A DNA stretch of 36,950 nucleotides from CAYFZR01 sp046760505 [NCBI: Candidatus Hydrothermarchaeota archaeon] (lineage in GTDB: Archaea; CAYFZR01), in NCBI GenBank assembly GCA_046760505.1, contig JBHIEG010000020.1, positions 1-36,950 of the forward strand. Reading direction: 5' to 3'. The notes below the pieces were generated by a model. It was given only the letters and a program-made list of their open reading frames with translations, searched no databases and was not told the DNA's origin. Both the position numbers and the translations under genes were made by a program. Below are positions 77 through 31,947 of the stretch, piece by piece (within the stretch, counting starts at the first letter, position 1; each line of letters starts with the position of its first letter).

Positions 77-469
77 ATGAGAAAAGAATACATCTCAAAC
101 GTTTTATTGTTCGTAATTTTAGTGAGCGTGGTAAATGGAATACCCCTGTACATGAAGGAAATTCCTGCTTCTCTTAAGAAGTGTACTGTTTGTCACATTC
201 AGTCATCAGGCATAGGTGGCTTGAACAACTTCGGTTTTGATTTTGCAAAAAATAATTTTTCTCTCTCGAGAATAGAAAAATTAGACTCAGATCACGATGG
301 ATTCAGCAATTATGATGAGCTCAATGCAGGTACCTATCCTGGAGATCCGAATTCCTATCCAGGAATTCATGAAAACGAAAGGAGGTCTGTGTCCAGCTTT
401 ACATCATTCCTTGCTGTATTGATAATTCTTATTCTCATCTTCACGCTTTACCTCAGATCCAAATCTTAA
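77..469 (+). CDS. Small membrane-anchored c-type cytochrome with Ca-loop motif
   Basis: A 130-residue exported protein. Residues 1-22 form a hydrophobic signal segment. A single haem c motif, CTVCH, lies at residues 36-40. An EF-hand/thrombospondin-type acidic loop, DSDHDG, begins at residue 70, and a C-terminal membrane segment (about 107-125) ends in a short basic tail. Together these predict a monohaem cytochrome c displayed outside the membrane and tethered at its C-terminus. The distal haem ligand is not obvious. The start is ATG with a GAGGGG ribosome site 6-10 nt upstream. The gene converges on ccmH, and its stop codon overlaps that of ccmH. The adjacent maturation genes support real haem attachment. 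Partner enzyme and electron route are unknown. Confidence 0.8.
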   Translation: MRKEYISNVLLFVILVSVVNGIPLYMKEIPASLKKCTVCHIQSSGIGGLNNFGFDFAKNNFSLSRIEKLDSDHDGFSNYDELNAGTYPGDPNSYPGIHENERRSVSSFTSFLAVLIILILIFTLYLRSKS

Positions 470-972
470 TTATTTTTCTTTCTAATAACCTTGAACTTTT
501 CATATTCCTTTTCAAACAATTTCTCGTATTTTTCATGTAGAGATTTTTTTTCTAGCTTTTCACTTTCTAATTTAATGAAGTCTTCCTCACTCATCTCCAA
601 AACTTCATCAGGATCTGTATACCAAGTTACACTCTCTCTTCTTTTGCTTAATACGTATATTATGCTCGCCCCTACTATGAGCCCGATCAACGGATAAGTC
701 CATAAGGCAAGATTGAATCCTTTTTTTGGGGGAGTTGCAAGAATCTGCCTACCGTAAGTTTCCTGAAGAGTTTTTATTATCTCTTCTCTGGTCATTCCTT
801 TGCTTATCATATCTTGAATCTCACCAACCAGATAAGCCTTGGTTTCGCATTCGCAATTAGCAAGAAGCATGTTGCAGCCGCACGGACAGTAGACGTCTTT
901 GGAGATATCCTCCACGGTTAATGCCAAAGCTGGCACGATTAGGAAAAATATTGGAATGATATTTCTTAACAT
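466..972 (-). CDS. ccmH: CcmH-like cytochrome c maturation thiol-redox protein
   Basis: CcmH-family proteins keep the apocytochrome CxxCH thiols reduced and assist haem ligation by CcmF outside the membrane. This 168-residue protein has a signal peptide (1-18), the CcmH core (about 24-75), a TM helix (about 90-108) and a charged, coiled-coil-like cytoplasmic tail. The core Cys pattern is C29-x-C31-x-C33-x6-C40-x-C42, followed by the family helix ending ETYG. The textbook CcmH motif is LRCxxC; this CPCGC variant has extra cysteines. The start ATG is 2 nt from the ccmF stop, with GGAG inside ccmF as ribosome site, so the two are co-transcribed. The same five-Cys spacing recurs in the protein encoded at 5080-6360. 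Confidence 0.86.
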   Translation of the reverse strand: MLRNIIPIFFLIVPALALTVEDISKDVYCPCGCNMLLANCECETKAYLVGEIQDMISKGMTREEIIKTLQETYGRQILATPPKKGFNLALWTYPLIGLIVGASIIYVLSKRRESVTWYTDPDEVLEMSEEDFIKLESEKLEKKSLHEKYEKLFEKEYEKFKVIRKKNN

Positions 973-974
973 GT

Positions 975-2879
975 TCAGCTCTCCACAAATCTTTTAGGTA
1001 TCAGAGCAACAATAATGCCTAAGCTCATCAAAACTCCCCCAATCCAGATTAGGGAAATTAATGGGAGGAACCTTACCACAAAAGATGCTCCCTCACCACT
1101 TATCCCTTCAAGGATTACGTATATGTCCTTTGTTAACGTAGAAACTATATCTGGACTGAAGTTATACTGTTTTGGAGTTAGAAACTCTGAGTAGGTTGGT
1201 TTTGCCTTTCCGATTAGTTTTTCATTCTCACGGATCTCTAACTCCACGGTCCAGACCATCTTGTTTGCGTGATGCTCAAAATTGTTGTCGACAAATACAA
1301 ACGTATGTTTGCCTATCCTTGTTTGCTCTCCCATCCCTAGGGAAAAACTGTGTTTTTCCTCATAGAGAGTTGAGAATGCAATTCCTGTAATAATCAAAAA
1401 TATTGAGAAGTGAACGAGGTAACCTCCGTATTTTCTTCTCCTCTTAACTATTAGCCTAAAGATGGACGAGCTTTCATCGTGTTTTTTAAATCTCCTATAG
1501 TCTTGGTAAAACTCTTGGAAGTGTGCTATGGCGGAGAAGAAGACGAAATAAGTTGCTAATATTACATAAGGTTCAAAATAACCCATAAACAATAGGAGCA
1601 TGACGGGTATCAGAGATGCAAGAAGAGGATACCTGAACATTTCTTTAAAATTTTCAAGAGAAAACCTTCTCCACGGAGTAAGAACGCAGAAACCTACGAG
1701 GATTAAGAGAAGTATTCCTATGGGCGCCTGAATCTGATTGTAGAACTCAGGTCCAACGCTGACTTGCACACCCTTGATCCATTCAGAAATCAGTGGAAAT
1801 ATGGTCCCCCAGAATATGGTAAGAGCAGAGACAACAAACAAGAGATTATTGACCAAGAAAGTGGTTTCTTTTGAAAAAGCTGATTCAAATATGTCTTTGC
1901 TCCTTATTTGATCATACTTCATTGCAATAACTCCTAGAGAGAAAATTAACATTGAAAGCATGTATGCCATGAAGTAAGGACCAATGTTCGAACCTGCGAA
2001 GGCATGAACAGAGGACAATACCCCGCTTCTTGTGAGAAAAGTTCCGAAGATTACAAACTCAAATGTCAATAAAATTAACAAAATATTCCAGAGTTTCATA
2101 CCTCTTTTGGTCTCTTGAATCATTACACTATGTAAAAAAGCGGTACTAGTAAGCCAAGGAAGCAAAGACGCATTTTCCACAGGGTCCCATGCCCAGTAAC
2201 CTCCCCAGCCAAGAATTACATATGCCCACCATCCGCCAAGTATAATCCCTAATCCAAGAAATAGCCATGAGAATAGGGTCCATTTCCTAACCCTATAAAT
2301 CCAACCCTCGTTATTCGTCAGGACTCCAGATATGGCAAAAGCAAATGGTATCGCGAGACCTGCATAACCTATGAATAAAGTCGGTGGATGGAAAGCCATG
2401 CCAATGTTTTGAAGGAGTGGATTTAGTCCTTGACCGTCTATTGGAACGAAATCAAGTCTTTTGAAAGGATTTAGAGATCCTATTAAAATGAACAGGAAGA
2501 AAGATTCTACCGACATCAGGATGGCAAGCGAATAATGAGTTAAGGTATCTTTTTTTTCTTTAAAGAGTACCCCAACTGAAAATATAGAGAGGAACCATGA
2601 CCAGAGCAAAAGAGATCCTGGAGAGCCAGCCCAGAACGCACTCACTGTATAAAATAATGGTAAATTCCTATCCGTATGCATCGCAACATATTCCACCTGA
2701 AAGTCCCGAGTAACCAAATAGTAAAGCAATATCACGGAAGATATGGTAACGAATGAAAAAGTCCCTATCAGGGCATACCTTCCGAAATTAACCAGATTTT
2801 TTCTATCAGACGAGAATGAAACTACCGAGAACATCGAGCAGATCAAAGCCAATAAGAGAGAAATGTATCCTATGTCCAT
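975..2879 (-). CDS. ccmF: CcmF cytochrome c haem lyase subunit
   Basis: An integral membrane protein of 634 residues, close to the usual length for CcmF. CcmF ligates haem to apocytochrome c in System I maturation. Visible family marks, in order: LPLFYTVSAFWAGSPGSLLLW, a HPPTLFIGY loop, the tryptophan-rich haem-handling WWD motif WGGYWAWDPVEN followed by ASLLPWL, a conserved HSVM, and near the C-terminus the RKYGGYLVHFS segment opening an extracytoplasmic domain before a last TM helix. The ATG directly abuts the stop of the upstream gene and has an AAGGAGATT ribosome site. CcmC and CcmE, the usual haem delivery partners, are not in this window. Either they lie elsewhere or the thiol proteins here form a modified System I. 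Confidence 0.93.
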   Translation of the reverse strand: MDIGYISLLLALICSMFSVVSFSSDRKNLVNFGRYALIGTFSFVTISSVILLYYLVTRDFQVEYVAMHTDRNLPLFYTVSAFWAGSPGSLLLWSWFLSIFSVGVLFKEKKDTLTHYSLAILMSVESFFLFILIGSLNPFKRLDFVPIDGQGLNPLLQNIGMAFHPPTLFIGYAGLAIPFAFAISGVLTNNEGWIYRVRKWTLFSWLFLGLGIILGGWWAYVILGWGGYWAWDPVENASLLPWLTSTAFLHSVMIQETKRGMKLWNILLILLTFEFVIFGTFLTRSGVLSSVHAFAGSNIGPYFMAYMLSMLIFSLGVIAMKYDQIRSKDIFESAFSKETTFLVNNLLFVVSALTIFWGTIFPLISEWIKGVQVSVGPEFYNQIQAPIGILLLILVGFCVLTPWRRFSLENFKEMFRYPLLASLIPVMLLLFMGYFEPYVILATYFVFFSAIAHFQEFYQDYRRFKKHDESSSIFRLIVKRRRKYGGYLVHFSIFLIITGIAFSTLYEEKHSFSLGMGEQTRIGKHTFVFVDNNFEHHANKMVWTVELEIRENEKLIGKAKPTYSEFLTPKQYNFSPDIVSTLTKDIYVILEGISGEGASFVVRFLPLISLIWIGGVLMSLGIIVALIPKRFVES

Positions 2880-3971
2880 TTAATCTCCTTCCTCCTCCTT
2901 GGTCATTTTTTCGATCTTTTTTAGGATCTCCGATACCTCTTCCTCGTATTTAGATTTTAGCTCTTCATAATCCTCTTCACTTATCCTACCTTCTTTATAG
3001 TCTTTTTCAAGTGCATTCAGAACCGCAAATGCCGCTTCTTTCTTTGCGATCAAGTCCTCTGCTGAGGAAGTTCTAAATTTTATGCTGAAAAATCCAGCCA
3101 TAAGAATTATAAATAAGATTAGGCCCTCACCAATCCAGATCCATTTTTTTGGTAAAGTAGAGAATCCAGAAAGAACTAAGGCGACGCTTTCTCCTTTTTT
3201 GAGATTTAGTGATTCGAATGAAGAATACTGCTTGTTTTCGAAAGTTAATTCCCCCCTCCTTATCAGATTTTCCGCATTTTTTGATGAAATACTGTTCTTT
3301 TCAATTAAGAGCATTAAAAAGTTAGTTTTATAATTTAACTTTCTCTCAAATTTATAATCTTTATTTTGCGGGATTAACTCGTAGTAAAAATCAATCTGAT
3401 ACGTTTCGTTTGGTTTAATCGCTTGCATGGGGTCGAATGTAAAACCTTCCTCTTCCTTGATTATGCAGCACTCCATTATAGATGTTCTAAAGTTTAAATA
3501 TTCCGGAGGTAGATTAACCCGGAGTTCGTTTCCATTGTAAGCCTTATTTCCCTCATTCCTGAATACGACTATTTCCTTTACCTTAATTTTATTTTCTTCT
3601 GGTTGAACGACAATGTGATGTATGTTTACGATGATGTCGTTTGCGCTTCTAGTGGTATCGAAAACTCTGAATTTTACCTTTTGTTCCCTGCTTTTTAGAT
3701 CTACAGGCATTAGGTAGGGTATACTTTTGAATTTTAGTAGTATATAATACTTCTCTCCGATTTTTAAGTTATCAAATGAAAATGAACTTGTATTAACGGT
3801 TTTATTTTCCAGATATTTATGATTAGAATCCATCAGACTAGCATTTATATAAGAGGATTTGTCATAACCCTCTACTTCAACAAAAATACTTCCATTTTCA
3901 ATTTCTTGAGAAACAGATGGAAAAACCAAGATAAAAGTCAGGAAGAAAATTAATGAAAAGATCTTCTTCAC
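2880..3971 (-). CDS. Signal-anchored Ig-like membrane protein with coiled-coil tail in ccm operon
   Basis: No family is recognised with certainty. Starting at GTG 3971 (AGAGGG ribosome site 7 nt upstream) gives a clean signal peptide ending near VSQE; an upstream TTG is possible but has no ribosome site. The extracytoplasmic part (about 25-275) is beta-rich and resembles carboxypeptidase-regulatory/Ig-like folds, with an isolated CC pair in MECC. One TM helix follows, then a charged cytoplasmic helix with a SHOCT-like stretch (KEGRISEEDYEELKSKYEE). It sits directly before ccmF with no gap, the place where bacterial clusters may carry ccmI or ccmG. A role as an assembly or apocytochrome-handling factor is inferred from position only. 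Confidence 0.7.
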   Translation of the reverse strand: MKKIFSLIFFLTFILVFPSVSQEIENGSIFVEVEGYDKSSYINASLMDSNHKYLENKTVNTSSFSFDNLKIGEKYYILLKFKSIPYLMPVDLKSREQKVKFRVFDTTRSANDIIVNIHHIVVQPEENKIKVKEIVVFRNEGNKAYNGNELRVNLPPEYLNFRTSIMECCIIKEEEGFTFDPMQAIKPNETYQIDFYYELIPQNKDYKFERKLNYKTNFLMLLIEKNSISSKNAENLIRRGELTFENKQYSSFESLNLKKGESVALVLSGFSTLPKKWIWIGEGLILFIILMAGFFSIKFRTSSAEDLIAKKEAAFAVLNALEKDYKEGRISEEDYEELKSKYEEEVSEILKKIEKMTKEEEGD

Positions 3972-4010
3972 GAATATCCCTCTTTTTCTATCATAGGTTA
4001 TCAGCACCAA

Positions 4011-5075
4011 TTACAAGTACCCAACTATGATCACTACGCCTAAGGCTATCATGAATAGCCCATTTATTAACTTTATCGTTGGTCGCTTTTTCTCCCTGAA
4101 TTCGTCTAACGTAAGAGGATTAAGACCCATAGTTATCGCAAGAGACAGGAAGAATATTGGTGTGACTTTTGCTACATTGTACAACAATAAATAGGATAAT
4201 CCACTTGCAAAATCATGCTGAAGCCAGATAAGATTCAATATACCCAGGTATATGCCGGTTACACAAGGTAGCTTCACTAAAGAGAAAATTAATCCAAGAG
4301 AAAAGCTCGAAAACATTGTGTTTTTTGATGCAAGATTATGGATAACATTTTTTACATTATCCGGCGTCTTAAAAAGTCTGCTTTCCTTTATTGAATAATC
4401 CTTAATGAATAAAATTCCAAAGACTATCGGGATTAAGCCAGCAATTATCTTAGCGACACCTGAATATCTGGGTATAAAATCTAATATGCTCAGTATAAGT
4501 AGTCCTTTAAGGAAGAAAAAGGAAAATACGCCTAAACCAAAGGCTGAGAGTATTACAAAGATTCTTTTTCTATCGGTTACCAGAGCAAGTATCAATCCGC
4601 TTAAAAAAGCCACTACTGCTAGGCAGCATGGTTGTAAACCCGCTAAAAAACCTGCTGAGACAACTAAATAAGGTGTAAGGTCTTTCCTTCCCTTTTTAAT
4701 AACCGTTACATTCTCATTTGAGTAATATTCCACTTTTTCTGCTATTAAATTCTCCAATTCTTTTTCTGAAAGATCTTTTATATTTACACTATCCTTCTCA
4801 TTGAAAACAAGGGATGGTGGATCTAAATTAAGTTCTTCTATTCTTTTAAAATTCTCAATCTCATAAACGCTCTTTTTCTCATATAAAACCGTATTATTGT
4901 ATTTTCTTATGATTTTATCGATGATTTCTCCCTTCTTTTCGCATACCGGGCACCCTTCGATGTGAAAAAACTCAATCTTTACCTTTTTTGTATCTTCATT
5001 AATTCCATACGAAGGTACAAGCCAAAATGAGATGGTGAAAATTAATAAAATGATTAAAGGCTTGAGTGCACTCAT
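4011..5075 (-). CDS. Thioredoxin-CcdA fusion, transmembrane thiol reductant carrier
   Basis: About 354 residues: a signal/TM segment, an extracytoplasmic thioredoxin-like domain with FFHIEGCPVC, then a DsbD/CcdA-type membrane domain with about six helices. The two membrane cysteines that shuttle electrons in this family are visible in GLQPCC and in KLPCVTG. Members move reducing equivalents from cytoplasmic thioredoxin to outside thiols. Here a periplasm-like acceptor is fused to the N-terminus, as DsbD fuses one to its C-terminus. ATG 5075 is chosen because AGTGAT lies just upstream; the first in-frame ATG (5117) lacks a ribosome site and would overlap the upstream gene by 38 bp. It is co-transcribed with the toroid gene (4 nt gap) and ccmF. 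Confidence 0.83.
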   Translation of the reverse strand: MSALKPLIILLIFTISFWLVPSYGINEDTKKVKIEFFHIEGCPVCEKKGEIIDKIIRKYNNTVLYEKKSVYEIENFKRIEELNLDPPSLVFNEKDSVNIKDLSEKELENLIAEKVEYYSNENVTVIKKGRKDLTPYLVVSAGFLAGLQPCCLAVVAFLSGLILALVTDRKRIFVILSAFGLGVFSFFFLKGLLILSILDFIPRYSGVAKIIAGLIPIVFGILFIKDYSIKESRLFKTPDNVKNVIHNLASKNTMFSSFSLGLIFSLVKLPCVTGIYLGILNLIWLQHDFASGLSYLLLYNVAKVTPIFFLSLAITMGLNPLTLDEFREKKRPTIKLINGLFMIALGVVIIVGYL

Positions 5076-5079
5076 CAAA

Positions 5080-6360
5080 TCACTTTTCTTCTTTTTTGAG
5101 TTTTTTTCTAGCATCATATAGATATATTAATGAGAAAAACAAAGATGCTGAGAGAAAGCCGATTATCAAGTACAAAAATTTATCTTTTTTACTTTCGTTC
5201 GATTCAGGGCTATTGAGTTCTTCTTGTCTCTGTCTTACTTCTTTGTCGTTAAAATTCTTTTTTATTGTATTCTCATTTAAATTATTCCCATTTGAATATT
5301 TGGATAATATTTCTTCCTTTGTTTTGCCTTCCATCAACATCTGGTTTATGTCTGCTTTAAGGAATTGAACCCACTCACAATCACATTCTGAGGATAAACG
5401 CCCGCAACCACATCCACAGGGGATTTTGCTGATGATTTCTTTACTAATTTCTATCTGTTTCTTTCTCAGAGTTTCATTTATACTATAGCGCACCTGTATA
5501 TTGTAGTCTCTAGCCTTCTTTAATCCAAGTAAAGCGGCTGATGTATAATAAGCAGTACCTTTCCAGCTGCCATCGTCCTGTTGTGTATAAAGGAGATATT
5601 TCACCGCCTTCTCTACTGGAGCGGTTTCTCCTAACTCAAGCAACGTAACCATCGTCATGCCGGTACAATGAGGACAGTTTCCCCAGCTTCCATTTGGATT
5701 CTGATCGCTTATAATGTAATTAACTGCTTTTTTTATAGTTTCAGAGTCTCTTGGTTCTCCATATGCTAGCAATGCACGCAGGGCCATGTTGTTGCATTTG
5801 GGACAGTCCTCCCAACTTCCATCCTCTTTTTGATTCCTTTTAAGCCACTCAATCCCTTTTCTGACGTATTCAGTGTCTTTTTCACCCGCCTCTATCAAGG
5901 CAAGGACGGAATTAGCGGTTATTCCTGTTTTAAGACCTTCTTCACCTTCGAAACTTCCGTCTGGATTCTGTTTCGATTTGAGATATTCTATTCCTTTTTT
6001 AACTGCATCAGAATCTTCTTTACCGCTCTTCAATAGAGCCATAAGGACTTGAGCAGTTACAAGAGTGTCGCTCTTTCCCTTAACCTTTGCCCATCCTCCA
6101 TCCTCATTCTGCCTCTTTATAAGACCCTGAGCAGTTTTATTTATCAAATCTTTGGGTTCGAAGTCAAATTCGATCAAAGTCTCTAAAACACTAGCGGTTT
6201 GATCGTTAGGTCCCCAAGTCTCATACAAGTCATAGATCTCTATTTTTGATTTTATGAGCCAATTCATGCCGCGTAATATATTTTGGTCGTATCCAACATC
6301 TTCCGCGAGAGTTAATGAAATAAGCATGAATAAAACAATTGTTGCTGGAATATTCTTCAT
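5080..6360 (-). CDS. Alpha/alpha-toroid (prenyltransferase/terpene-cyclase-like repeat) protein fused to CcmH-like domain
   Basis: A 426-residue secreted membrane-anchored protein. Residues 1-19 are a signal peptide. Residues 25-285 hold five repeats of about 42-48 residues with the QW-like pattern N/D-x-D/N-G-[GS]-[WF] (86-90, 133-137, 179-183, 222-226, 262-266), as in squalene cyclase/prenyltransferase toroids. Two repeats carry CxxC pairs at matching places, CPKC (186-189) and CPHC (229-232). Residues 310-355 are CcmH-like, with C315-x-C317-x-C319-x6-C326-x-C328. A linker, a TM helix (about 394-415) and a lysine-rich tail follow. The terpene cyclase DxDD catalytic motif is not seen, so an enzyme role is doubtful. 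ATG has a GAGGAGG site. It is first gene of the ccmF-ccmH operon. Function unknown; apocytochrome docking is an inference. Confidence 0.82.
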   Translation of the reverse strand: MKNIPATIVLFMLISLTLAEDVGYDQNILRGMNWLIKSKIEIYDLYETWGPNDQTASVLETLIEFDFEPKDLINKTAQGLIKRQNEDGGWAKVKGKSDTLVTAQVLMALLKSGKEDSDAVKKGIEYLKSKQNPDGSFEGEEGLKTGITANSVLALIEAGEKDTEYVRKGIEWLKRNQKEDGSWEDCPKCNNMALRALLAYGEPRDSETIKKAVNYIISDQNPNGSWGNCPHCTGMTMVTLLELGETAPVEKAVKYLLYTQQDDGSWKGTAYYTSAALLGLKKARDYNIQVRYSINETLRKKQIEISKEIISKIPCGCGCGRLSSECDCEWVQFLKADINQMLMEGKTKEEILSKYSNGNNLNENTIKKNFNDKEVRQRQEELNSPESNESKKDKFLYLIIGFLSASLFFSLIYLYDARKKLKKEEK

Positions 6361-6440
6361 TTACTTCCTCCTCAAACGATTCATACACTTTTGAATGTTT
6401 TTGAGTTAAATGATTTATTTTCTCACTAAGTTTAGATTGA

Positions 6441-6470
6441 TTATTTATACTTTTGTTGTATATTTAAATA
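6441..6470 (-). promoter_or_regulatory. Candidate TATA promoter of the ccm operon
   Basis: The 137-bp gap before the toroid gene is very AT-rich. On the minus strand TTTAAATATA (6468-6459) and GTATAAATAA (6451-6442) both fit archaeal TATA boxes, leaving a leader of about 55-75 nt before the GAGGAGG ribosome site. Which one is used cannot be told. Confidence 0.45.
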
Positions 6471-6497
6471 TTTTTTTATTTATGTTAGGTAAATTTT

Positions 6498-7766
6498 TTA
6501 TTTTCTTCGCTTCGCCACATTAAGAAAAATAAAGATAAAAAGAAAAAGAAGAAATAAAATTATTCCCTTTACTATAGAATAAGATCTGCTCTCTACGTTA
6601 AGATCTACCTCATTGGATTCTTGCGTATGTAGTCCATTTTCATCGAAGAATATAATGTTCGCTGGTGGTATTGTGTATTTTTTTGACTTATCGCTTTTTA
6701 TAACATAGCTAAACGTCTCCTTTTGGCCAACTCTTAAAAAAGGAAGGTTTATGATCGTCTCTCCAGAAACCACCTTTACATCTTCGCAAACAGAGTCTAT
6801 GATTCTAATATCTTTTGCATCATCGTTTCCTATATTTTTTATTTCAAGAGTCACTATAACCTCTTCCCCCTCTTTTACCGTATCCTTATTTAGAGACTTT
6901 GAAATAACGATTATTGCCTCTTTCCTCTTGGTTTCAAATTCATCTTCTATTTTTTCATAGGATTCGTTTTTTACTTCAGATTTTATGCTTTCTATACTTA
7001 TAGAAGCCTTATTTGATTTTACTTCGATTACCTCTCCATCGATTTTATACAAGGCGGTTGTTGCGTCGAGAAGTATGTTTCCGGGAGAGTATGTTCTCAT
7101 TTTGTAAAATAATTCAACTCGGTTTCTGGGATACAAATCCAAATTGAAGATTATTTCATTTCCCTCTCTCTTTATTCTAGGCAAGCTCTCGTTAATCAGA
7201 ACATCAAGACCGTTTGGAATTTTATCCTTTATCTCTATGTTCTCAATCTTCCTTTTCCCATTATTCTCTACCTCGAGATAAACAATGAATGTACCATTTT
7301 CAGAGTCCTTTTCAATCCTCTTTTTTATGGTGATATCTGGGATCAATTCTTCCAAACGTTCTATTAAAGTCTCTTTTTCTTGATACCCAATCAATCGACC
7401 CACTTCATTCCCATTTTTATCAAAAAAAATGAAGACAGGAACTCCATAAACTCCAAAATCTTTTGCCAGTTCTTTGTACTCATTTGCGTCCACCGTAATT
7501 ATATTTACAACATCCGCGTATTCCTTCCTGATTTCTTTCATGATTGGAATCATCCTCACACATATGCTGCACGTATCCTTGGAAAAATCAAGCAAAGTGG
7601 GTTTCCCGCTTTTAAGAGCGTTTTCAAAGCTTTCCGGGGTATAATCATAGTAGATTCCGACCGGGCTTATTCTTGCATCTACAACTGGAGAATACAACGA
7701 TATAGAAATAAGGAAGATTACTGCCAATCTGGGCAATAGATCTTTTAATTTTTTTATGCGAAACAT
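6498..7766 (-). CDS. Membrane-anchored thioredoxin (CSIC) with DUF11/CARDB-like domains
   Basis: A 422-residue exported protein: signal segment about 10-30; thioredoxin fold about 35-145 with active site DFSKDTCSIC (Cys66, Cys69) and the cis-Pro region GVPVFIFF; two beta-sandwich DUF11/CARDB-like domains (about 150-245 and 280-395); one C-terminal TM helix and a basic stop-transfer end. The active-site dipeptide Ser-Ile is unusual. The lead-in YYDYTPESFENALKSGKPT recurs in the proteins at 8619 and 9151, so the three are paralogues. It probably reduces or exchanges disulfides on surface or apocytochrome substrates, fed by the nearby CcdA proteins. The ribosome site is weak; TTTATTTAAA (about 7811-7802, minus strand) may be its TATA box, giving a short leader. 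Confidence 0.78.
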   Translation of the reverse strand: MFRIKKLKDLLPRLAVIFLISISLYSPVVDARISPVGIYYDYTPESFENALKSGKPTLLDFSKDTCSICVRMIPIMKEIRKEYADVVNIITVDANEYKELAKDFGVYGVPVFIFFDKNGNEVGRLIGYQEKETLIERLEELIPDITIKKRIEKDSENGTFIVYLEVENNGKRKIENIEIKDKIPNGLDVLINESLPRIKREGNEIIFNLDLYPRNRVELFYKMRTYSPGNILLDATTALYKIDGEVIEVKSNKASISIESIKSEVKNESYEKIEDEFETKRKEAIIVISKSLNKDTVKEGEEVIVTLEIKNIGNDDAKDIRIIDSVCEDVKVVSGETIINLPFLRVGQKETFSYVIKSDKSKKYTIPPANIIFFDENGLHTQESNEVDLNVESRSYSIVKGIILFLLFLFIFIFLNVAKRRK

Positions 7767-7865: not shown

Positions 7866-8600
7866 TTACTCCAGATCGATGCCGAAGAATTTGTAGTAAT
7901 CTGGGATCGAATCATATATTCTTCCTAACTGAGGGAATGCATTGTAGAGATATGGAGATATGGGATGGATTATTGTAAATGCGATTAAAATCAATATTAT
8001 TCCTGAAACTTTGTTTATCCACTCTGCTTTTAAAATGGATTCGGATAATTTAAACTTGGCCTCAGAACTTAATACACTGGCAAGAATTACAGGGATACCG
8101 AAACCTATTGAGTAGATAAATAAAGTAACGCCACCAAAGACCACGTTTCCCTCCGCTGCAATGAGTGCTAAAATACCTGCCAAAACAGGATCAGCACAAG
8201 GATTAACCGCTACACCAAATACTAACCCAAACGAAAAGGCTCCAATGAGACCTTTTTTTCTAGGAGCTGCCTTAGGTCTGAATCTCGAGAAAACATCAGA
8301 CTCTATCTTCACCACATTCAACAGTTTTAGTCCCATCAAAAATGCTATAAAAGCTGCCAAATATCTAAAATAAAACGTGAAGTTTAGAATCTGCCCTAGT
8401 ATAGAGGCAAACACACCCAAGGCTGTAAGGGTAATAGACAAACCGAAAATGAAAGAAACTGCTGTTGAAAACGCCTTTCTCCTGCTATCAGAAACTCCCG
8501 TGACGAATGCGAGAGTAACTGGCAGAACCGTAAAGACACATGGACCCAAGGCTGTAAAAATTCCCGCAAGAAAGGCAAGTGGAACTGATATCTCGACCAT
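7866..8600 (-). CDS. ccdA: CcdA/DsbD-family transmembrane thiol-disulfide carrier
   Basis: A six-helix membrane protein of 244 residues, a standard CcdA length. The paired cysteines lie in FTALGPCVFTVLPV (helix 1) and VAVNPCADPVLAG (helix 4), the family's electron relay across the membrane. A mostly hydrophobic build with GFGIPV turns also fits. ATG 8600 is preceded by AGGCGATT. It follows the membrane thioredoxin gene by 18 bp, a natural donor-acceptor pair: CcdA passes electrons out and the CIPC thioredoxin receives them. The fusion at 4011-5075 is a second CcdA-type carrier, so this locus encodes two. Confidence 0.9.
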   Translation of the reverse strand: MVEISVPLAFLAGIFTALGPCVFTVLPVTLAFVTGVSDSRRKAFSTAVSFIFGLSITLTALGVFASILGQILNFTFYFRYLAAFIAFLMGLKLLNVVKIESDVFSRFRPKAAPRKKGLIGAFSFGLVFGVAVNPCADPVLAGILALIAAEGNVVFGGVTLFIYSIGFGIPVILASVLSSEAKFKLSESILKAEWINKVSGIILILIAFTIIHPISPYLYNAFPQLGRIYDSIPDYYKFFGIDLE

Positions 8601-8618: not shown

Positions 8619-9053
8619 TTAAACCAGCTCATCCAACACGTTCTTTATTGTCTCTTTACTTTGATAGCCTACCAAAGTCCTGAATAGTTCCCCCTTTTTA
8701 TTGAAGAATATCAGCGTTGGAAGATTTCTTACTCCGTATTCCTTTACCAGATCTAGCTCGGTGTCGGCATTTACGGTTAAAATATTTGCTTTCCCTCGAT
8801 ATTCTTCCTTGAGTTCCTTCATAAAGGGAGCCATGCGTCTACAAGGTATGCACCAATCTGCGGCAAATTCCAAGAGAGTGGGCATGCCGCTTTTCAGAGC
8901 TTTCTCAAATTTATAGGGAGTGTAATCATATATTATCTTGGGTAAATCTTTTTCAGGTTTATTTTTCGAGGTGCTTCCGCTAACATGAAAAATATATCCT
9001 ATGGCGATTATAGCTGCAACCGCAACCACTATCATCCATTTATTGGGGCGCAT
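8619..9053 (-). CDS. Membrane-tethered thioredoxin (CIPC), CcmG/TlpA-like role
   Basis: About 144 residues: an N-terminal TM anchor (7-24), a short linker and a thioredoxin domain with WCIPC (Cys68, Cys71), a GVRNLPTLIFF cis-Pro loop and a terminal helix. The lead-in IIYDYTPYKFEKALKSGMPT matches the other two thioredoxin paralogues nearby. ATG 9053 has GGTTGAT just upstream; a TTG at 9065 would fall almost at the predicted transcription start. It directly precedes ccdA, so it is likely the CcdA-reduced thioredoxin that resolves apocytochrome or CcmH disulfides, the job of CcmG/ResA in bacteria. Substrate assignment is inference. Confidence 0.84.
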   Translation of the reverse strand: MRPNKWMIVVAVAAIIAIGYIFHVSGSTSKNKPEKDLPKIIYDYTPYKFEKALKSGMPTLLEFAADWCIPCRRMAPFMKELKEEYRGKANILTVNADTELDLVKEYGVRNLPTLIFFNKKGELFRTLVGYQSKETIKNVLDELV

Positions 9054-9082
9054 TCCATCAACCAAGTAAATTTACGTGGAAA

Positions 9083-9150: not shown

Positions 9151-10452
9151 TTAAAATTGATACCTCGCTGCTAAGGCAACAAAAAATAAAAAGATCAGTA
9201 TTCCAAAAGCTATTATGATCTTAGAGAAAGATAAGGAGCCATATTCAGCTTCAGATTCTTTTGAAACCGATATGGGTATTTCCTCTGTTGATACGAACTT
9301 CTCATCACCCAAGTGTGAGTAAATAAGATTTGCCCTGGGAATATTGTAGTTACCCTCCTTCAATGGTTTTATTATGTAACTATATGTCTTCGACTCCCCT
9401 GTGCCCAGTCTATCTTGAATATATAAATTGCCATAAATGACCTCAAAATTTTTAGGTATGCTATCTACTATTTTAATATCGACATCTCTATCCAATTTGT
9501 TCTCCACCCTTAAAAGCACAACTACCTCTTCGCCAACTGATGGAGTAAAACTTTCTACGGTCTTTGTTATGGTTAAACCTTCTATACTTTTTTCCATGAC
9601 GTTTTTATCTTTAGAGGGTTCTGCGATCTTCTTTTCTCCAAGCAATTTATACGGTGTAGAGGAAGGTAATTCCACACTCAAACCTATTCTATCAAAACTT
9701 ATGTTCAGCAGAGTTACCTTAGCCTTTCCAGCGAGAAACGTCTCCCCGACATTTCTCGGTATGGATAGACTCTCTATTTTCTCACCCATGGAGTAAACTG
9801 CTATGACTGCTCTTTCCATTTTTTTGTCTGTACCAATAAATTCTAACCAGAAGTTTTCATAACTGAATTTCTCGCCTAGAGATAGAAAGCCTTCGTAACT
9901 TCCCTTACTTTGTTTCAATACTACTCCCTTGGGCTCATAAATGGGGGTTAACTCGTATTTAGGTTTGGATTTTTTTATTTCTTTGGGGATCTCTTCAATT
10001 TTTTCTCCCTTTATTAATTTTCTTAGGACAAATTCAATATCCTCTTTCTCCTGATATCCAACCAGAGTTAAAACCTTCCTTCCATATTTATCAAAGAAAG
10101 TAAAGGTGGGAAGATAGCGTTCACCGTACTTCCTCGAAAGTTCAAGTCCCTCTTCAGTATCCACGTTGACGGTAATTATGTCTACCATGCCTTCGTATTC
10201 CGCTCTTAATGCCCTTATGGTTGGAACCATCATCCTACACGCGCCGCATCTGTCTGCAGAGAAATCCACCATCGTGGGCCTTCCATTGTAAAGTTTTGAG
10301 TTAAAGGTCTCCGGAGAATAATCGTAGTATATTCCTGCGGGACTTACATACCCTTCAGAACTTTTAGTTTCTTCGGCAAATAAGGGGTTCAATGAAATTA
10401 TAACTGAAATGAGGTTAATTAAGGTAAATAAAATCAAATGCTTGCGTGTCAT
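9151..10452 (-). CDS. Membrane-anchored thioredoxin (CGAC) with DUF11/CARDB-like domain
   Basis: About 433 residues: signal peptide (1-26), thioredoxin domain with DFSADRCGAC (Cys69, Cys72) and RYLPTFTFF, a beta-rich middle (about 165-280), a DUF11/CARDB-like sandwich (about 290-395) and a C-terminal TM helix. It is a paralogue of the protein at 6498-7766 with the same order of domains and the shared YYDYSPETF lead-in. The start is uncertain: ATG 10452 gives a tidy signal peptide, ATG 10464 would be nearly leaderless relative to the TATA box, and TTG/ATG codons further up lie within the promoter. It faces the Fe-S operon across a 183-bp divergent gap. Likely an outward-facing disulfide reductase or chaperone; substrate unknown. 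Confidence 0.77.
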   Translation of the reverse strand: MTRKHLILFTLINLISVIISLNPLFAEETKSSEGYVSPAGIYYDYSPETFNSKLYNGRPTMVDFSADRCGACRMMVPTIRALRAEYEGMVDIITVNVDTEEGLELSRKYGERYLPTFTFFDKYGRKVLTLVGYQEKEDIEFVLRKLIKGEKIEEIPKEIKKSKPKYELTPIYEPKGVVLKQSKGSYEGFLSLGEKFSYENFWLEFIGTDKKMERAVIAVYSMGEKIESLSIPRNVGETFLAGKAKVTLLNISFDRIGLSVELPSSTPYKLLGEKKIAEPSKDKNVMEKSIEGLTITKTVESFTPSVGEEVVVLLRVENKLDRDVDIKIVDSIPKNFEVIYGNLYIQDRLGTGESKTYSYIIKPLKEGNYNIPRANLIYSHLGDEKFVSTEEIPISVSKESEAEYGSLSFSKIIIAFGILIFLFFVALAARYQF

Positions 10453-10485
10453 CTTCCATATCATGCAAATTAGAGTGTTAAACCT

Positions 10486-10496
10486 TCTATTTAAAA
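10486..10496 (-). promoter_or_regulatory. TATA box for the CGAC thioredoxin gene
   Basis: ATTTTAAATAG on the minus strand lies about 25 bp before 10466, which predicts a start just ahead of ATG 10464 and a very short leader for ATG 10452. Confidence 0.45.
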
Positions 10497-10634
10497 TGTA
10501 TGCCACAAACTATTCTACCAAACAGTTAAAGATAAAAAAAATCTAGGATCCCAATTTTTTTTATACATAATTCAATTATACAAGACCTAACATATTTTTA
10601 GAATGGAATGACCCTTTTTTCTTCCGTTAATATA

Positions 10635-10689: not shown

Positions 10690-11244
10690 TTGACAGGTAT
10701 TGAAATGCCTAAATCATTCTTGAGACTTAATGTGGTAGCCTTTAATCTCATTGCTGCTTTCTTAGGAAGTTTGGTTATTACAGCAGCAAGATCAGGACAT
10801 CTCCAATCTCTTATATGTTATGAATGCAGGGCTTGCATGACCGAATGTCCGAGAGGAATAGACCCCACTGGTTTTGAAGTCGCGGCGAGATCTTATAACG
10901 CGAATAGATACCATATTCTAAGAGGTGTTGAACTCACTGTGGAAGAGGCCCTCGCCTTGGATCCAGGCATGAGGGTAAGGGCTAAGTTTGCGGATGGCAC
11001 ATTGGATTCTAATAAATTAACTGTTTCTGATGTAAAGAAAAGAATTGAGAGAAAAGAAAAAGTGATCGTAGACGGTAGAGAGTACAATTACGATGATGTG
11101 AGGGAGGTTTATTCAGAGGAAATGCGTGCAAAGGATGTGGCACAGTTTTGTGTTAGATGTGGTCTCTGCGAGAAAAATTGTCCGGCTTCTCTCCGAATTC
11201 TTGAGATAATAGATGATCTAAGGGTTGATGGTAAGTTCAGGTGA
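10690..11244 (+). CDS. HdrC-like membrane-associated two-cluster 4Fe-4S protein
   Basis: A 184-residue protein with one N-terminal hydrophobic helix (about 13-33) and two CxxCxxCxxxCP motifs (Cys43, 46, 49, 53 and Cys154, 157, 160, 164) bracketing a roughly 100-residue insert. This layout resembles HdrC and the HdrC-like electron-transfer subunits, which pass electrons between a membrane quinone/methanophenazine module and an Fe-S or flavin partner. The start is TTG, supported by GAGGTG 6 nt upstream; ATG 10705 is an alternative. It is first gene of a five-gene operon whose next start overlaps its stop region. No HdrD/HdrB-type CCG-domain partner is in the window, so its redox partner is unknown. 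Confidence 0.8.
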   Translation: MTGIEMPKSFLRLNVVAFNLIAAFLGSLVITAARSGHLQSLICYECRACMTECPRGIDPTGFEVAARSYNANRYHILRGVELTVEEALALDPGMRVRAKFADGTLDSNKLTVSDVKKRIERKEKVIVDGREYNYDDVREVYSEEMRAKDVAQFCVRCGLCEKNCPASLRILEIIDDLRVDGKFR

Positions 11245-11248
11245 TTCT

Positions 11249-11470
11249 ATGGAGGTAAACAAGCATATAGTTATACTTTTGGTCATTATATTCGTCGGGA
11301 TGATCTTGAACAGAAGCGCAGGGGTAACAGAATCTGATAATTTAAAGGCGCTGAAAGGGGATTTAGTAGAACTTGGAGTGATACCCAAGCCGTATGATCC
11401 AAATCTCACCTATCTAACCACTCCTGAGCTCAATATTTCCCACAGAAGTGAGTCAAAAGAAGGTGGATAG
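11249..11470 (+). CDS. Small single-span membrane protein with DPxLxxLxxPxL tail
   Basis: A 73-residue protein of no known family. Residues 6-20 form one TM helix or uncleaved signal; the rest is polar. Residues 50-61 (DPNLTYLTTPEL) match the spacing of a motif in the next protein. ATG 11249 is chosen because AGGTGAT lies immediately before it; the previous gene's TGA is part of that ribosome site, which implies coupled translation. It may be a small accessory subunit that docks the Fe-S proteins to the membrane (inferred from context). Confidence 0.7.
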   Translation: MEVNKHIVILLVIIFVGMILNRSAGVTESDNLKALKGDLVELGVIPKPYDPNLTYLTTPELNISHRSESKEGG

Positions 11471-11471
11471 C

Positions 11472-11672
11472 ATGCGAGAAAAAATTTCCGAGAGAGATAT
11501 ATCAAGAAGATCTTTTATAAAAGGAGCAGGAGCATTGGGAGTTCTGTCAATCGTTCCTCTAGCGAGTAAATCAGATTCTAAAGTTATAGAGAATAAAATT
11601 AAGGGAAGTGTAGAATCCATTGATCCCAAACTTAATCATCTCTCAAGACCTAAATTAGAGGTTGTAAAATGA
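11472..11672 (+). CDS. Very small Tat-signal protein without a cofactor domain
   Basis: A 66-residue protein that is largely a twin-arginine signal: SRRSFIK at residues 11-17 followed by a hydrophobic stretch to about residue 30. The remaining 35 residues contain DPKLNHLSRPKL (51-62), which parallels DPNLTYLTTPEL in the preceding protein, and no cysteine. Tat export normally serves folded cofactor proteins, so such a short passenger is odd. It may hitch-hike with, or escort, a folded Fe-S partner. ATG 11472 follows GGTGGAT; the stop overlaps the next start as ATGA. It could also be a remnant signal of a lost larger subunit, though the conserved tail argues against decay. Confidence 0.72.
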   Translation: MREKISERDISRRSFIKGAGALGVLSIVPLASKSDSKVIENKIKGSVESIDPKLNHLSRPKLEVVK

Positions 11673-12250
11673 TCAGGATCTTCGTCGGAAAAGATCTCAG
11701 CGGGAGGTACATCAAAAGAAATAATGTGGATATATTTGTTCCCAGGCTAATGAAGGTCTATGCAATAGATAGGGAAGGCAGGCATGTTGTGAAGGAAAAA
11801 TTCGTGGACAGAGAGGGGTACATAACGCTAAAGGAAAAAGTAGGAGACGAAGCGGAATGGGCACTAAAATACCTGGAAGTGAAAAACGATAAAGTATATC
11901 CTATCCCACCTATCCTAGGGACTACCCAGCAAAGGTTTGAGGAAGGAGTTGATATGTACGAACTTCTCTTAGATGCAAAGAAAAGCGGTAGACCCTATGG
12001 TGTGCAGAAATGCACCTATCCTATCTGCATAGGAAGATGCGTTCAAATATGTCCAACTGACGCGATCACAATGTCAACGGAAGAATTCAGAGAGACAGGA
12101 AAAATATTTCCAAAAATAGATGATAAGAAGTGCATAAAATGCGGGCTATGCATAGAGGCTTGCGGATTCGAGGCGATATATCAAAAGAAAGAGGCTATTA
12201 GAGAGACAACAAGATTTGAGAGAGAATCCTTGGGTGAGGTTAGCAGATGA
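11669..12250 (+). CDS. Cytoplasmic-type two-cluster ferredoxin with atypical Cys spacing
   Basis: A 193-residue soluble protein without a signal. Residues 1-110 are a family-unassigned N-terminal domain. Residues 113-175 resemble NrfC/DmsB-type ferredoxin modules, but the first motif is C115-x4-C120-x3-C124-x3-C128-P rather than Cx2Cx2Cx3CP or the DmsB Cx2Cx4Cx3CP. The second is C155-x2-C158-x2-C161-x3-C165 and lacks the usual following proline. It probably carries two clusters linking the HdrC-like and NapG-like proteins. Because it lacks its own Tat signal, it may be exported with the small Tat protein encoded just upstream. Both ends overlap neighbours by ATGA, so the gene is translationally coupled. 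Confidence 0.78.
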   Translation: MIRIFVGKDLSGRYIKRNNVDIFVPRLMKVYAIDREGRHVVKEKFVDREGYITLKEKVGDEAEWALKYLEVKNDKVYPIPPILGTTQQRFEEGVDMYELLLDAKKSGRPYGVQKCTYPICIGRCVQICPTDAITMSTEEFRETGKIFPKIDDKKCIKCGLCIEACGFEAIYQKKEAIRETTRFERESLGEVSR

Positions 12251-12756
12251 AGAAGACATCTTTTGAAGGATTGTCTAGGAGAGGTTTCTTAAGGATAACG
12301 CTTGAAACGGCTACAACGGCAATAATCGCTATGGTTCTTCTAGGAGAACTTGTTGTAAGTCGTGAAAATGCTCCATCTGTAATCAATGAGAAAAACGAGA
12401 CTGTTAAAGCAAAATTCATCGAATTCAAAGGTGAGCCAAAATTAGCACCTCCCGGAGCAATAGATGATTTTCTCTCTACGTGCGCAAGATGCGGTATCTG
12501 CGTTGAGGTCTGTCCGGTTGGTGTGCTAAGTCTTTATGATGTAGGTTACCCCATACTAACAAAAAAAGAAGAATGCATCTCATGGGTTAAGGAGAAGGAG
12601 CACTTCGAGTTAGAAAAATGCGGTCTCTGTGTGGCAAACTGCCCCACCGGGGCTCTGAGAGGTAAACGCGATTACCAATTTAAGTGGGTTCAATCCAAAT
12701 TACCTGCAAAACCCAAAAGATGGGTGGTTGGTCCCCGGAAAGGGACTAAAGAATAG
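12247..12756 (+). CDS. NapG-like Tat-exported 4Fe-4S ferredoxin
   Basis: A 169-residue protein with a Tat signal (SRRGFLR at 10-16 and a hydrophobic run to about 38). Ferredoxin motifs: CARCGICVEVCPVG (Cx2Cx2Cx3CP), a distant cysteine in EECISW, and CGLCVANCPTGA, as in the NapG/MauM group that carries electrons to periplasmic reductases. A basic tail follows. Its ATG overlaps the previous stop as ATGA, and it is last in the operon. NapG usually works with NapH (membrane) and NapA (molybdenum catalytic subunit). Neither is present, so the electron acceptor is unknown. The resemblance is to the family; a nitrate-specific role is not implied. Confidence 0.83.
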   Translation: MKKTSFEGLSRRGFLRITLETATTAIIAMVLLGELVVSRENAPSVINEKNETVKAKFIEFKGEPKLAPPGAIDDFLSTCARCGICVEVCPVGVLSLYDVGYPILTKKEECISWVKEKEHFELEKCGLCVANCPTGALRGKRDYQFKWVQSKLPAKPKRWVVGPRKGTKE

Positions 12757-31236: not shown

Positions 31237-31947
31237 ATGTCCATAGCCGTATCCATAGACCTCGAACAAGATTTGCCACCCTATGGGAGTACTTTCAGAG
31301 GCATTGAAGAGGGATTACCTAAAATACTAGCCAAATTAATAAAATACGATGTAAATCCGACTTTTTTCGTAACATCCGACGTGGCAAAAAGATTTCCTGA
31401 CGAAATAGAAAATTTAATCGAACATGGATTCGAAATTGGTTGTCACAGTCATTATCATAAAAAGAGTACAAATCCAAATGAAATTGAAGAAGCAACCCAT
31501 ATATTAATGGATTTTTGTGATGTAATAGGGTACAGGGCACCGTATTTGCGCTTAAACAGCAACACTTACGAGTATCTACACAGGCTGAACTATATCTACA
31601 GTTCTTCTACCATAGGAACTCATATACGCAAAGTAAACGGAATAATAGAGGTTCCGATAACTCCTACCAAACTATTTGGTTTGAAATTGCCTGCATGTAC
31701 CTCTACATTAAGACTAGGTGGAAAGAGAATTATACCTAGAATACTGGAAAGGGAAGACATAGTTTTTTACACCCATCCCTGGGAATATATCAGGTTAAAT
31801 CACGTAAGACCAAGAATTTTGGGGTTCAGATGCGGTCCGTGGATCGAAAAGATATTTGATGAGTTTTTAAAAAAAGCCAGAGAGATAGACGATTTCAAAA
31901 ATCTCTCTTACTTAGCGAAGTACAATGCTAAAAGAAATCAAAAATAG
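31237..31947 (+). CDS. Polysaccharide deacetylase (NodB-like)
   Basis: 236 residues. NodB-fold marks: SIDLEQD (metal and catalytic aspartates), HGFEIGCHSHYH (two metal histidines), GYRAPYLRLN, and YTHPWEY late in the chain. Such enzymes remove N-acetyl groups from sugars. With no signal peptide, this one would act in the cytoplasm, perhaps on a glycan or lipid-linked precursor. It lies 40 bp after gpgS. Its last 20 bp overlap the end of nreA on the other strand. Confidence 0.85.
   Translation: MSIAVSIDLEQDLPPYGSTFRGIEEGLPKILAKLIKYDVNPTFFVTSDVAKRFPDEIENLIEHGFEIGCHSHYHKKSTNPNEIEEATHILMDFCDVIGYRAPYLRLNSNTYEYLHRLNYIYSSSTIGTHIRKVNGIIEVPITPTKLFGLKLPACTSTLRLGGKRIIPRILEREDIVFYTHPWEYIRLNHVRPRILGFRCGPWIEKIFDEFLKKAREIDDFKNLSYLAKYNAKRNQK

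Follow-up and report, generated by a model that had tools for sequence, protein, structure and literature searches.

The window, the whole 36,950-nucleotide stretch of archaeal DNA analyzed here, was confirmed to carry an alpha/alpha toroid and a CcmH-like domain in a single open reading frame (ORF) heading a predicted ccmF-ccmH operon. One archaeal gene group thus encodes, besides the toroid-CcmH fusion, a complete CcmH and a protein whose tail is CcmI-like. By analogy, the most economical reading would be a CcmH with a helical-repeat apocytochrome holder, in which a toroid replaces the tetratricopeptide repeats (TPRs) and extra thiols are present. We put at roughly 0.45 the probability that the product is a thiol-bearing protein that holds apocytochromes for CcmF/CcmH, in the manner of the Escherichia coli CcmH-TPR fusion.

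Architecture of the Fusion Gene

The fusion gene is preceded, shortly before its ATG, by GGAGG and lies 137 bases from the nearest upstream gene on the same strand. A promoter scan of this upstream region, built on sigma-70-type (bacterial) signals and hence not covering archaeal promoters, scored no higher than shuffles. The gene and its parts are as follows.

5080..6360 (-), toroid-CcmH fusion gene, 426 aa, one open frame, ATG start
6361..6497 (-), upstream gap of the fusion gene, AT-rich, with GGAGG near the ATG
6304..6360 (-), signal peptide, about residues 1-19, by reading of the sequence
5497..6288 (-), alpha/alpha toroid, about residues 25-288, six helix pairs (Pfam, AlphaFold2, Foldseek, VIA-align)
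5794..5805 (-), CPKC motif (C186, C189) at the N-terminus of helix 187-200
5665..5676 (-), CPHC motif (C229, C232) at the N-terminus of helix 230-242
5290..5475 (-), CcmH-like domain, about residues 296-357 (BLASTP, hhalign, fold matches)
5377..5418 (-), CGCGC...CDC cysteine motif (C315, 317, 319, 326, 328)
5113..5181 (-), C-terminal membrane helix, about residues 394-416 (AlphaFold2 model, hydropathy)

The product therefore runs from signal peptide through toroid, CcmH-like domain, and linker to a C-terminal membrane helix. The most hydrophobic 19-residue stretch begins at residue 396 and coincides with a predicted helix, bearing out the membrane anchor claimed in the sequence-only reading of this DNA. 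Hydropathy and the character of the N-terminus suggest a putatively extracytoplasmic, membrane-anchored protein. All nine cysteines belong either to one of the CPxC motifs or to the cysteine motif of the CcmH part, and the sole histidine of the whole fusion, H231, sits inside CPHC.

The Toroid and Its Two CPxC Motifs

The N-terminal part matched SQHop_cyclase_C (E 1.7e-30), and SQHop_cyclase_N, Prenyltrans, and TED also exceeded their Pfam cut-offs over the same region, all of them families that we take to be alpha/alpha toroids. An AlphaFold2 model of the fusion, computed from a 16-row alignment (mean pLDDT 82.2), folded residues 25-285 into about 12 helices arranged in six pairs, at about 25-38/53-64, 70-82/99-111, 118-129/144-157, 164-175/187-200, 207-218/230-242, and 247-259/270-285; the limits of the first helix are a reading, as DSSP merges it with the low-confidence signal peptide. 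Confidence was high from residue 81 on (pLDDT at least 87 in 20 of the 21 ten-residue blocks spanning 81-290) and lower over the first helix pair and its loop (residues 21-80, pLDDT 47-88, with residues 44-49 below 50). The top VIA-align match was squalene-hopene cyclase (2sqc; Z 28.3, rmsd 2.7, 264 residues, model range 21-288) and the top Foldseek match of the toroid was drimenyl diphosphate synthase (E 3.7e-7), and VIA-align matches also included the toroids of glycosidases and thioester domains. On this modeling the toroid fold is firm, in agreement with the terpene-cyclase/prenyltransferase-like repeat barrel that had been proposed.

Two CPxC motifs missing from the earlier reading constitute a new observation. 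They lie 43 residues apart in neighboring helix pairs, and C186 and C229 each stand immediately before the second predicted helix of their pair, so that the two motifs should face the same barrel mouth. In thioredoxin, the active-site CxxC likewise sits at the start of a helix, and CPxC pairs are also typical of zinc knuckles. None of 151 other toroid ORFs carried two CxxC motifs within the toroid and only 5 of 151 carried one, including a toroid ORF (L046) whose CxxC directly follows a DGxW motif; the paired motifs therefore belong to the fusion and not to the fold. Among these ORFs, two from Schlesneria (Planctomycetes; L060:5352-6422 and L063:3790-4845) contain CFNCH inside the toroid, by reading a possible c-type haem site, and another (L051) contains CLSCH.

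The CPxC motifs of the toroid may have a redox role or form a metal site. In the second case the protein would be a rigid adaptor at CcmF/CcmH that exchanges no thiols: the four toroid cysteines would bind one zinc or iron ion and hold neighboring helices together, and the adaptor would position the CcmH-like domain or other partners. The resemblance to zinc-binding knuckles and the placement of the two pairs in adjacent helix pairs are consistent with such a site, as is a heavy-metal-binding match to the second motif (PF19335, residues 227-238, E 0.026), albeit one that is weak and under the Pfam cut-off. Nevertheless, the gene cluster is rich in thiol-disulfide proteins and the CcmH part bears a further set of cysteines, and we consider this adaptor unlikely.

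A Shortened CcmH-Like Domain

Homology of the C-terminal part to CcmH was detected by sequence comparison. Although the Pfam CcmH model (PF03918) fell short of its cut-off of 25 (12.0 bits, E 0.12), BLASTP aligned the fusion with the complete CcmH encoded in the window at 35% identity over 72 aa (E 3e-10, for that single comparison). A 21-sequence profile, composed of the window's CcmH and 20 of 31 CcmH ORFs after exclusion of 11, including those of the APCCW type, matched the CcmH-like part in hhalign with a probability of 96.7 (E 3.1e-10, columns 19-72 of 171), covering CcmH helices 1 to 3 together with the cysteine motif; the whole fusion protein matched with E 4.6e-9. In control runs, the true score of 63.9 compared with a maximum of 17.4 in 60 full shuffles, whereas 60 shuffles with fixed cysteines reached 42.7 and a Cys-to-Ser copy scored 30.2. 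The cysteine pattern thus carries a good part of the score, though not all of it.

Folded separately, the C-terminal part gave a model of modest confidence (mean pLDDT 70.2), for which the first match in both structural searches was 2hl7, the periplasmic domain of Pseudomonas CcmH (Foldseek probability 1.00, E 0.2; VIA Z 7.8, which is below 8, rmsd 2.6, 65 residues). At this pLDDT, the assignment of a CcmH fold rests as much on sequence as on the model. The C-terminal part alone matched no PDB sequence up to E 1 in phmmer; aligned with 11 CcmH sequences it found two CcmH structures, a result for which the other rows alone could suffice. Structure prediction of the two parts, which had been proposed as a check, thus returned a toroid that is well predicted from residue 81 on and, at modest confidence, a second part with CcmH as its first fold match.

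In the fusion, the LRCxxC pair of CcmH is replaced by CGCGC, C315 and C319 aligning with the pair with one extra residue between them; motifs of this CGCGC...CDC type occur commonly in the 31 CcmH ORFs. Canonical CcmH ends in YGxxVLxxPP...W..P, of which the first glycine, first proline, tryptophan, and last proline were invariant in the 21 chosen sequences, as was a second glycine of this region. At the corresponding end of the fusion, the first glycine and a remnant reading KKxFN can still be aligned with the complete CcmH of the window, and the prolines and W..P are gone. We therefore regard this part, on its sequence, as a shortened, degenerate CcmH and not a complete one. The CcmH-type domain of the sequence-only reading stands as homology, supported by hhalign, the shuffles, and the first fold match, but not as a full family member; lacking several defining features of the family, the protein is a CcmH-related fusion rather than a CcmH, though it may work like CcmH-CcmI.

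The Predicted Operon and Its Surroundings

From the spacing, the fusion is predicted to head an operon of five genes, the last two being ccmF and ccmH; the successive gaps from the fusion down to ccmH are -38, 0, 0, and 2 bases. The claim that the fusion opens this operon therefore holds at the level of prediction. Genes of the operon and of the adjoining cluster are listed below.

4011..5117 (-), DsbD_TM (CcdA-type) membrane protein (27.3 bits against a cut-off of 27.1)
2880..4010 (-), 376-aa protein with an extracytoplasmic domain and membrane helix (by reading) and a CcmI-like tail
975..2879 (-), CcmF/NrfE-type haem lyase subunit (Pfam, NCBIfam)
466..972 (-), complete CcmH (PF03918) with a CPCGC...CEC motif (Pfam)
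6498..7766 (-), thioredoxin and DUF11-type domain with a C-terminal hydrophobic stretch (Pfam, sequence)
7866..8600 (-), CcdA/DsbD transmembrane protein (Pfam)
8619..9065 (-), thioredoxin with an N-terminal hydrophobic stretch, a CcmG-like role being possible (Pfam, sequence)
9151..10506 (-), thioredoxin and BatD/DUF11-type domain (Pfam)

The DsbD_TM protein has an N-terminal part with CPVC that gave weak thioredoxin and glutaredoxin matches (E 0.0023 and 0.24), and it may start at residue 15, just past the stop of the fusion. The tail of the 376-aa protein matched a small ORF beside ccmH in another locus (L116, E 5.3e-11), for which reason we name it, by reading, a CcmI-like element; tail matches at E <=0.001 occurred in 10 of 21 Acidobacteria-type ccm loci, some of them on short contigs, and in a single one of these loci (L199) an ORF of its own matched the N-terminal part (E 1.5e-10). 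No TPR family appeared among the Pfam matches listed for nine cluster proteins, for one of which the list gave 25 of 27 matches, nor did any TPR match the fusion up to E 1.

Upstream of the operon, the two thioredoxin-DUF11/BatD genes (6498-7766 and 9151-10506, both on the minus strand) flank the CcdA gene and a thioredoxin gene. Beyond them lies a divergent trio of 4Fe-4S ferredoxin-type proteins (10690-12756, plus strand), upstream of a DUF3147 protein. Further along the window, 31928-33154 encodes an archaeal Nre with both Pfam domains (E 3.6e-103 and 4.8e-42), which identifies the host as an archaeon, and 34563-35783 encodes a Toprim protein, DnaG-like by reading, with 61% identity to its Methanobacteriaceae counterpart, 53-56% to those of Thorarchaeota and Methanomethyliaceae, and no match in two bacterial genomes tried.

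Among the compared genomes, the window CcmF was closest to a bacterial one (42% identity over residues 3-628, 508 bits), compared with 188.7 bits for the best CcmF of the Thorarchaeota phylum, a difference that, in a comparison without Halobacteriota, may point to bacterial ancestry for the module. Its best scores came from NrfE-type NCBIfam models, yet under their cut-offs. This is one of three observations that would suit a fusion serving one special cytochrome or haem site, as NrfEFG serves NrfA, and not general maturation. The second is a small protein convergent with ccmH (77-469, plus strand), with hydrophobic stretches at both ends by reading and one CXXCH, the only such motif in the window's open frames of >80 aa. 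The third is the duplicate ccmF located between two CcmH-like genes in Geoglobus and Ferroglobus (PMC4600277). We rate such specialization as rather improbable.

Missing Enzyme Motifs

Consistent with the earlier remark that the barrel lacks an evident DxDD, pattern searches located neither DxDD nor DCxAE in the fusion, and the squalene--hopene cyclase model TIGR01507 scored 86.9 bits against a cut-off of 431.1. Terpene cyclase or prenyltransferase function was rejected on these grounds, the protein having a single barrel and lying far under the NCBIfam cyclase cut-offs. A thioester domain was likewise rejected: PF07678 (TED) exceeded its cut-off (41.6 against 22 bits), but no CGEQ-type thioester motif is present and the match was ascribed to the shared fold. 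With DxDD, DCxAE, and the thioester motif missing, enzymatic activities tied to such motifs are unlikely.

Terpene cyclases have a hydrophobic lumen, and, these enzymes being the best structural relatives of the toroid, the lumen could instead bind a hydrophobic ligand (haem, an isoprenoid quinone, or an archaeal lipid) and feed or sense it at CcmF. The haem/isoprenoid idea in the sequence-only reading, which is of this kind, found no positive evidence. One barrel only, the missing cyclase motifs, a sole histidine within CPHC that leaves little to ligate haem, and fold matches that extend to glycosidase and thioester-domain toroids all argue against it, and we hold it to be quite improbable.

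Distribution of Related Sequences

A contig scan yielded toroid relatives at 97 confirmed loci, of which 80 were kept, with 23-48% identity in the best segment; the farthest-reaching matches covered fusion residues 80-383 (L050) or extended up to 310-315 (L014 and L013). Together with 70 loci from later searches, 149 of 150 loci supplied the 151 toroid ORFs. At E <=1, no CcmH-like domain was detected in any of the 151, and the 80 scanned loci held no homologue of CcmH, the fusion C-terminal part, CcmF, the 376-aa ORF, or the DsbD_TM protein. Neither the fusion nor CcmF found a relative in IMG/VR, and none of the 32 records matched in a plasmid collection covered 80% of the fusion.

Fusion matches at E <=1e-4 occurred in 60 of 247 genomes of the Acidobacteria phylum, 66 of 95 of the Rokubacteria phylum, 50 of 201 of the Ardenticatenia phylum, 59 of 222 of the Thorarchaeota phylum, and 22 of 398 of the Methanomethyliaceae phylum. 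Among the matches listed for these five phyla, nine lay in the CcmH part, on contigs with no toroid match, and the rest lay in the toroid. A second toroid-CcmH fusion was absent from the matches listed for these 1163 genomes, a set that did not include Halobacteriota (Archaeoglobi, ANME), and a toroid ORF with a CcmH part scoring weaker than E 1e-4 would have been recognized only among the 151 ORFs inspected. Accordingly, the same domain order, which had been put forward as something to look for in other archaea, was not encountered among the matches listed for the genomes of the Methanomethyliaceae (398) and Thorarchaeota (222) phyla, again with Halobacteriota not included. The likeliest home of fusion relatives is the Halobacteriota (Archaeoglobi, ANME).

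We also followed the ccm genes themselves. Of the 227 genomes searched in the Thorarchaeota phylum, 29 carried a CcmF homologue (L081-L109); in the stretches inspected from 20 of these genomes, 4 of them represented by 3-6 kb contigs, neither a CcmH-like nor a toroid gene was detected at E <=0.01. CcmF was found in none of 151 genomes from the phylum of the Methanobacteriaceae genome (a search run without a positive control) and CcmF_C in none of 300 from the Methanomethyliaceae phylum (5 of 14 controls positive, including Methanosarcina acetivorans), neither search covering Halobacteriota. No toroid lay near the ccm genes of the 21 Acidobacteria-type ccm loci at E <=0.001. Two single ORFs of Acidobacteria-type genomes, L183:7348-9849 (834 aa) and L198:7087-9534 (816 aa), matched both CcmF and CcmH and represent CcmF-CcmH fusions. 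That the toroid-CcmH gene is a chance or assembly fusion with no cytochrome maturation function would suit its single occurrence among the toroid loci and the 1163 genomes, but is very improbable given the one open frame, a CcmH part with, by reading, no signal peptide of its own, the tight spacing with ccmF-ccmH, and the restriction of cysteines to motifs.

Proposed Role in Cytochrome c Maturation

For the holder, we infer the following scheme of topology, apocytochrome binding, thiol exchange, and docking. The fusion would assist an archaeal cytochrome c synthetase (CcmF/CcmH) as an accessory subunit, held by its membrane anchor so that the toroid and CcmH-like domain lie outside. Unfolded apocytochrome would be bound by the toroid, a part ascribed to the TPRs in CcmI/NrfG or in the CcmH fusion of E. 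coli, and the cysteines of the two CPxC motifs and of CxCGC...CxC would reduce the CXXCH thiols of the apocytochrome or maintain them in the reduced state, with electrons supplied by the thioredoxins and CcdA/DsbD-type proteins encoded next to it. Through the CcmH-like part, the complex may dock to CcmF or to the operon's other CcmH, which is complete. An apocytochrome docking platform, as the earlier reading had envisaged, fits the parallel with the E. coli CcmH-TPR fusion.

We know of no uses of the toroid fold beyond enzyme and thioester-domain ones; if the toroid does hold apocytochromes, the fold would be used beyond both, and the protein would be a candidate for apocytochrome handling in archaeal System I. 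Somewhat more tentative is the evolutionary reading, in which a terpene-cyclase-type toroid, fused to a trimmed CcmH, was taken up by an archaeal lineage to serve as an apocytochrome chaperone that carries thiols; it would stand in for the TPRs of bacterial CcmI as a non-orthologous replacement.

In favor of the apocytochrome holder are the toroid fold, the CcmH homology and first fold match of the C-terminal part, the CPxC cysteines directly ahead of predicted helices, the E. coli precedent (PMC3601427) together with the lack of TPR matches in the cluster, the predicted operon with ccmF, ccmH, and a CcmI-like tail, the thioredoxin and CcdA/DsbD genes in or beside it, cysteines confined to motifs, the 151 other toroids among which none has two CxxC motifs, and the missing cyclase motifs. 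Against it stand the single example of the fusion, an operon that already holds a complete CcmH, cysteine positions that alone reach 42.7 of the hhalign score of 63.9, the likeness to zinc knuckles with the PF19335 match, and M. acetivorans, which matures cytochrome c by CcmABCEF alone (PMC9084895).

Comparison with Known Systems

Among the open-licence papers listed, no toroid-CcmH fusion was found, and CcmH is mentioned together with squalene or prenyltransferase under unrelated titles only. The statement that no described maturation factor has this build agrees with that search, with the qualification that paired CcmH-like proteins around ccmF are known (PMC4600277). Reports on archaeal CcmH differ. 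CcmD, CcmH, and CcmI have been called universally absent from archaeal genomes, it being unclear, per the introduction of that paper, whether unrelated proteins replace them, and replacement of CcmH/I by an unrelated protein was thought unlikely but not excluded (PMC9084895). CcmH has elsewhere been found only in Ferroglobus (PMC4429474) and reported in ANME-2d (PMC9012536), and in Pyrodictium a CcdA-type gene was taken as a functional CcmH (PMC5556600).

Among archaea, the nearest parallel in these sources is a duplicate ccmF flanked by two CcmH-like proteins in Geoglobus ahangari, Geoglobus acetivorans, and Ferroglobus placidus (PMC4600277). As there, a single ccmF in the window has two CcmH-like proteins in its vicinity, both bearing a C-x-C signature. 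The window's complete CcmH, reading LANCEC, follows the published pattern LX[S,N]C[E,D,H]C, whereas the fusion reads LSSECDC, one residue off, and is separated from ccmF by two genes. In the passages compared, a toroid is not mentioned for the Geoglobus and Ferroglobus proteins (PMC4600277). The CxCGC...CxC-type CcmH proteins of Acidobacteria-type genomes (e.g., L144 and L151-L153) share the same kind of cysteine motif at 22-27% identity to the C-terminal part of the fusion; unlike it, they are either CcmH proteins lacking a toroid or CcmF-CcmH fusions, and they keep YGxxVLxxP and W..P. With squalene-hopene cyclase and class II terpene cyclases the fusion shares the toroid fold and QxxDGxW-type repeats, and it differs from them in having one barrel, no DxDD, an attached CcmH part, and two CPxC motifs.

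The CcmH of E. coli is joined in one protein to CcmI, whose TPR part is considered to aid interaction with the apocytochrome; the CcmH cysteines may be redox partners of the apocytochrome, CcmF interacts with CcmH, and a proposed role of CcmG is covered in the same source (PMC3601427). Unlike E. coli CcmH and NrfF-NrfG, the archaeal fusion gives no TPR match and has an N-terminal toroid, bearing two CPxC motifs, ahead of a shortened CcmH; like them, it combines a CcmH-type domain with a helical repeat and is encoded together with CcmF.
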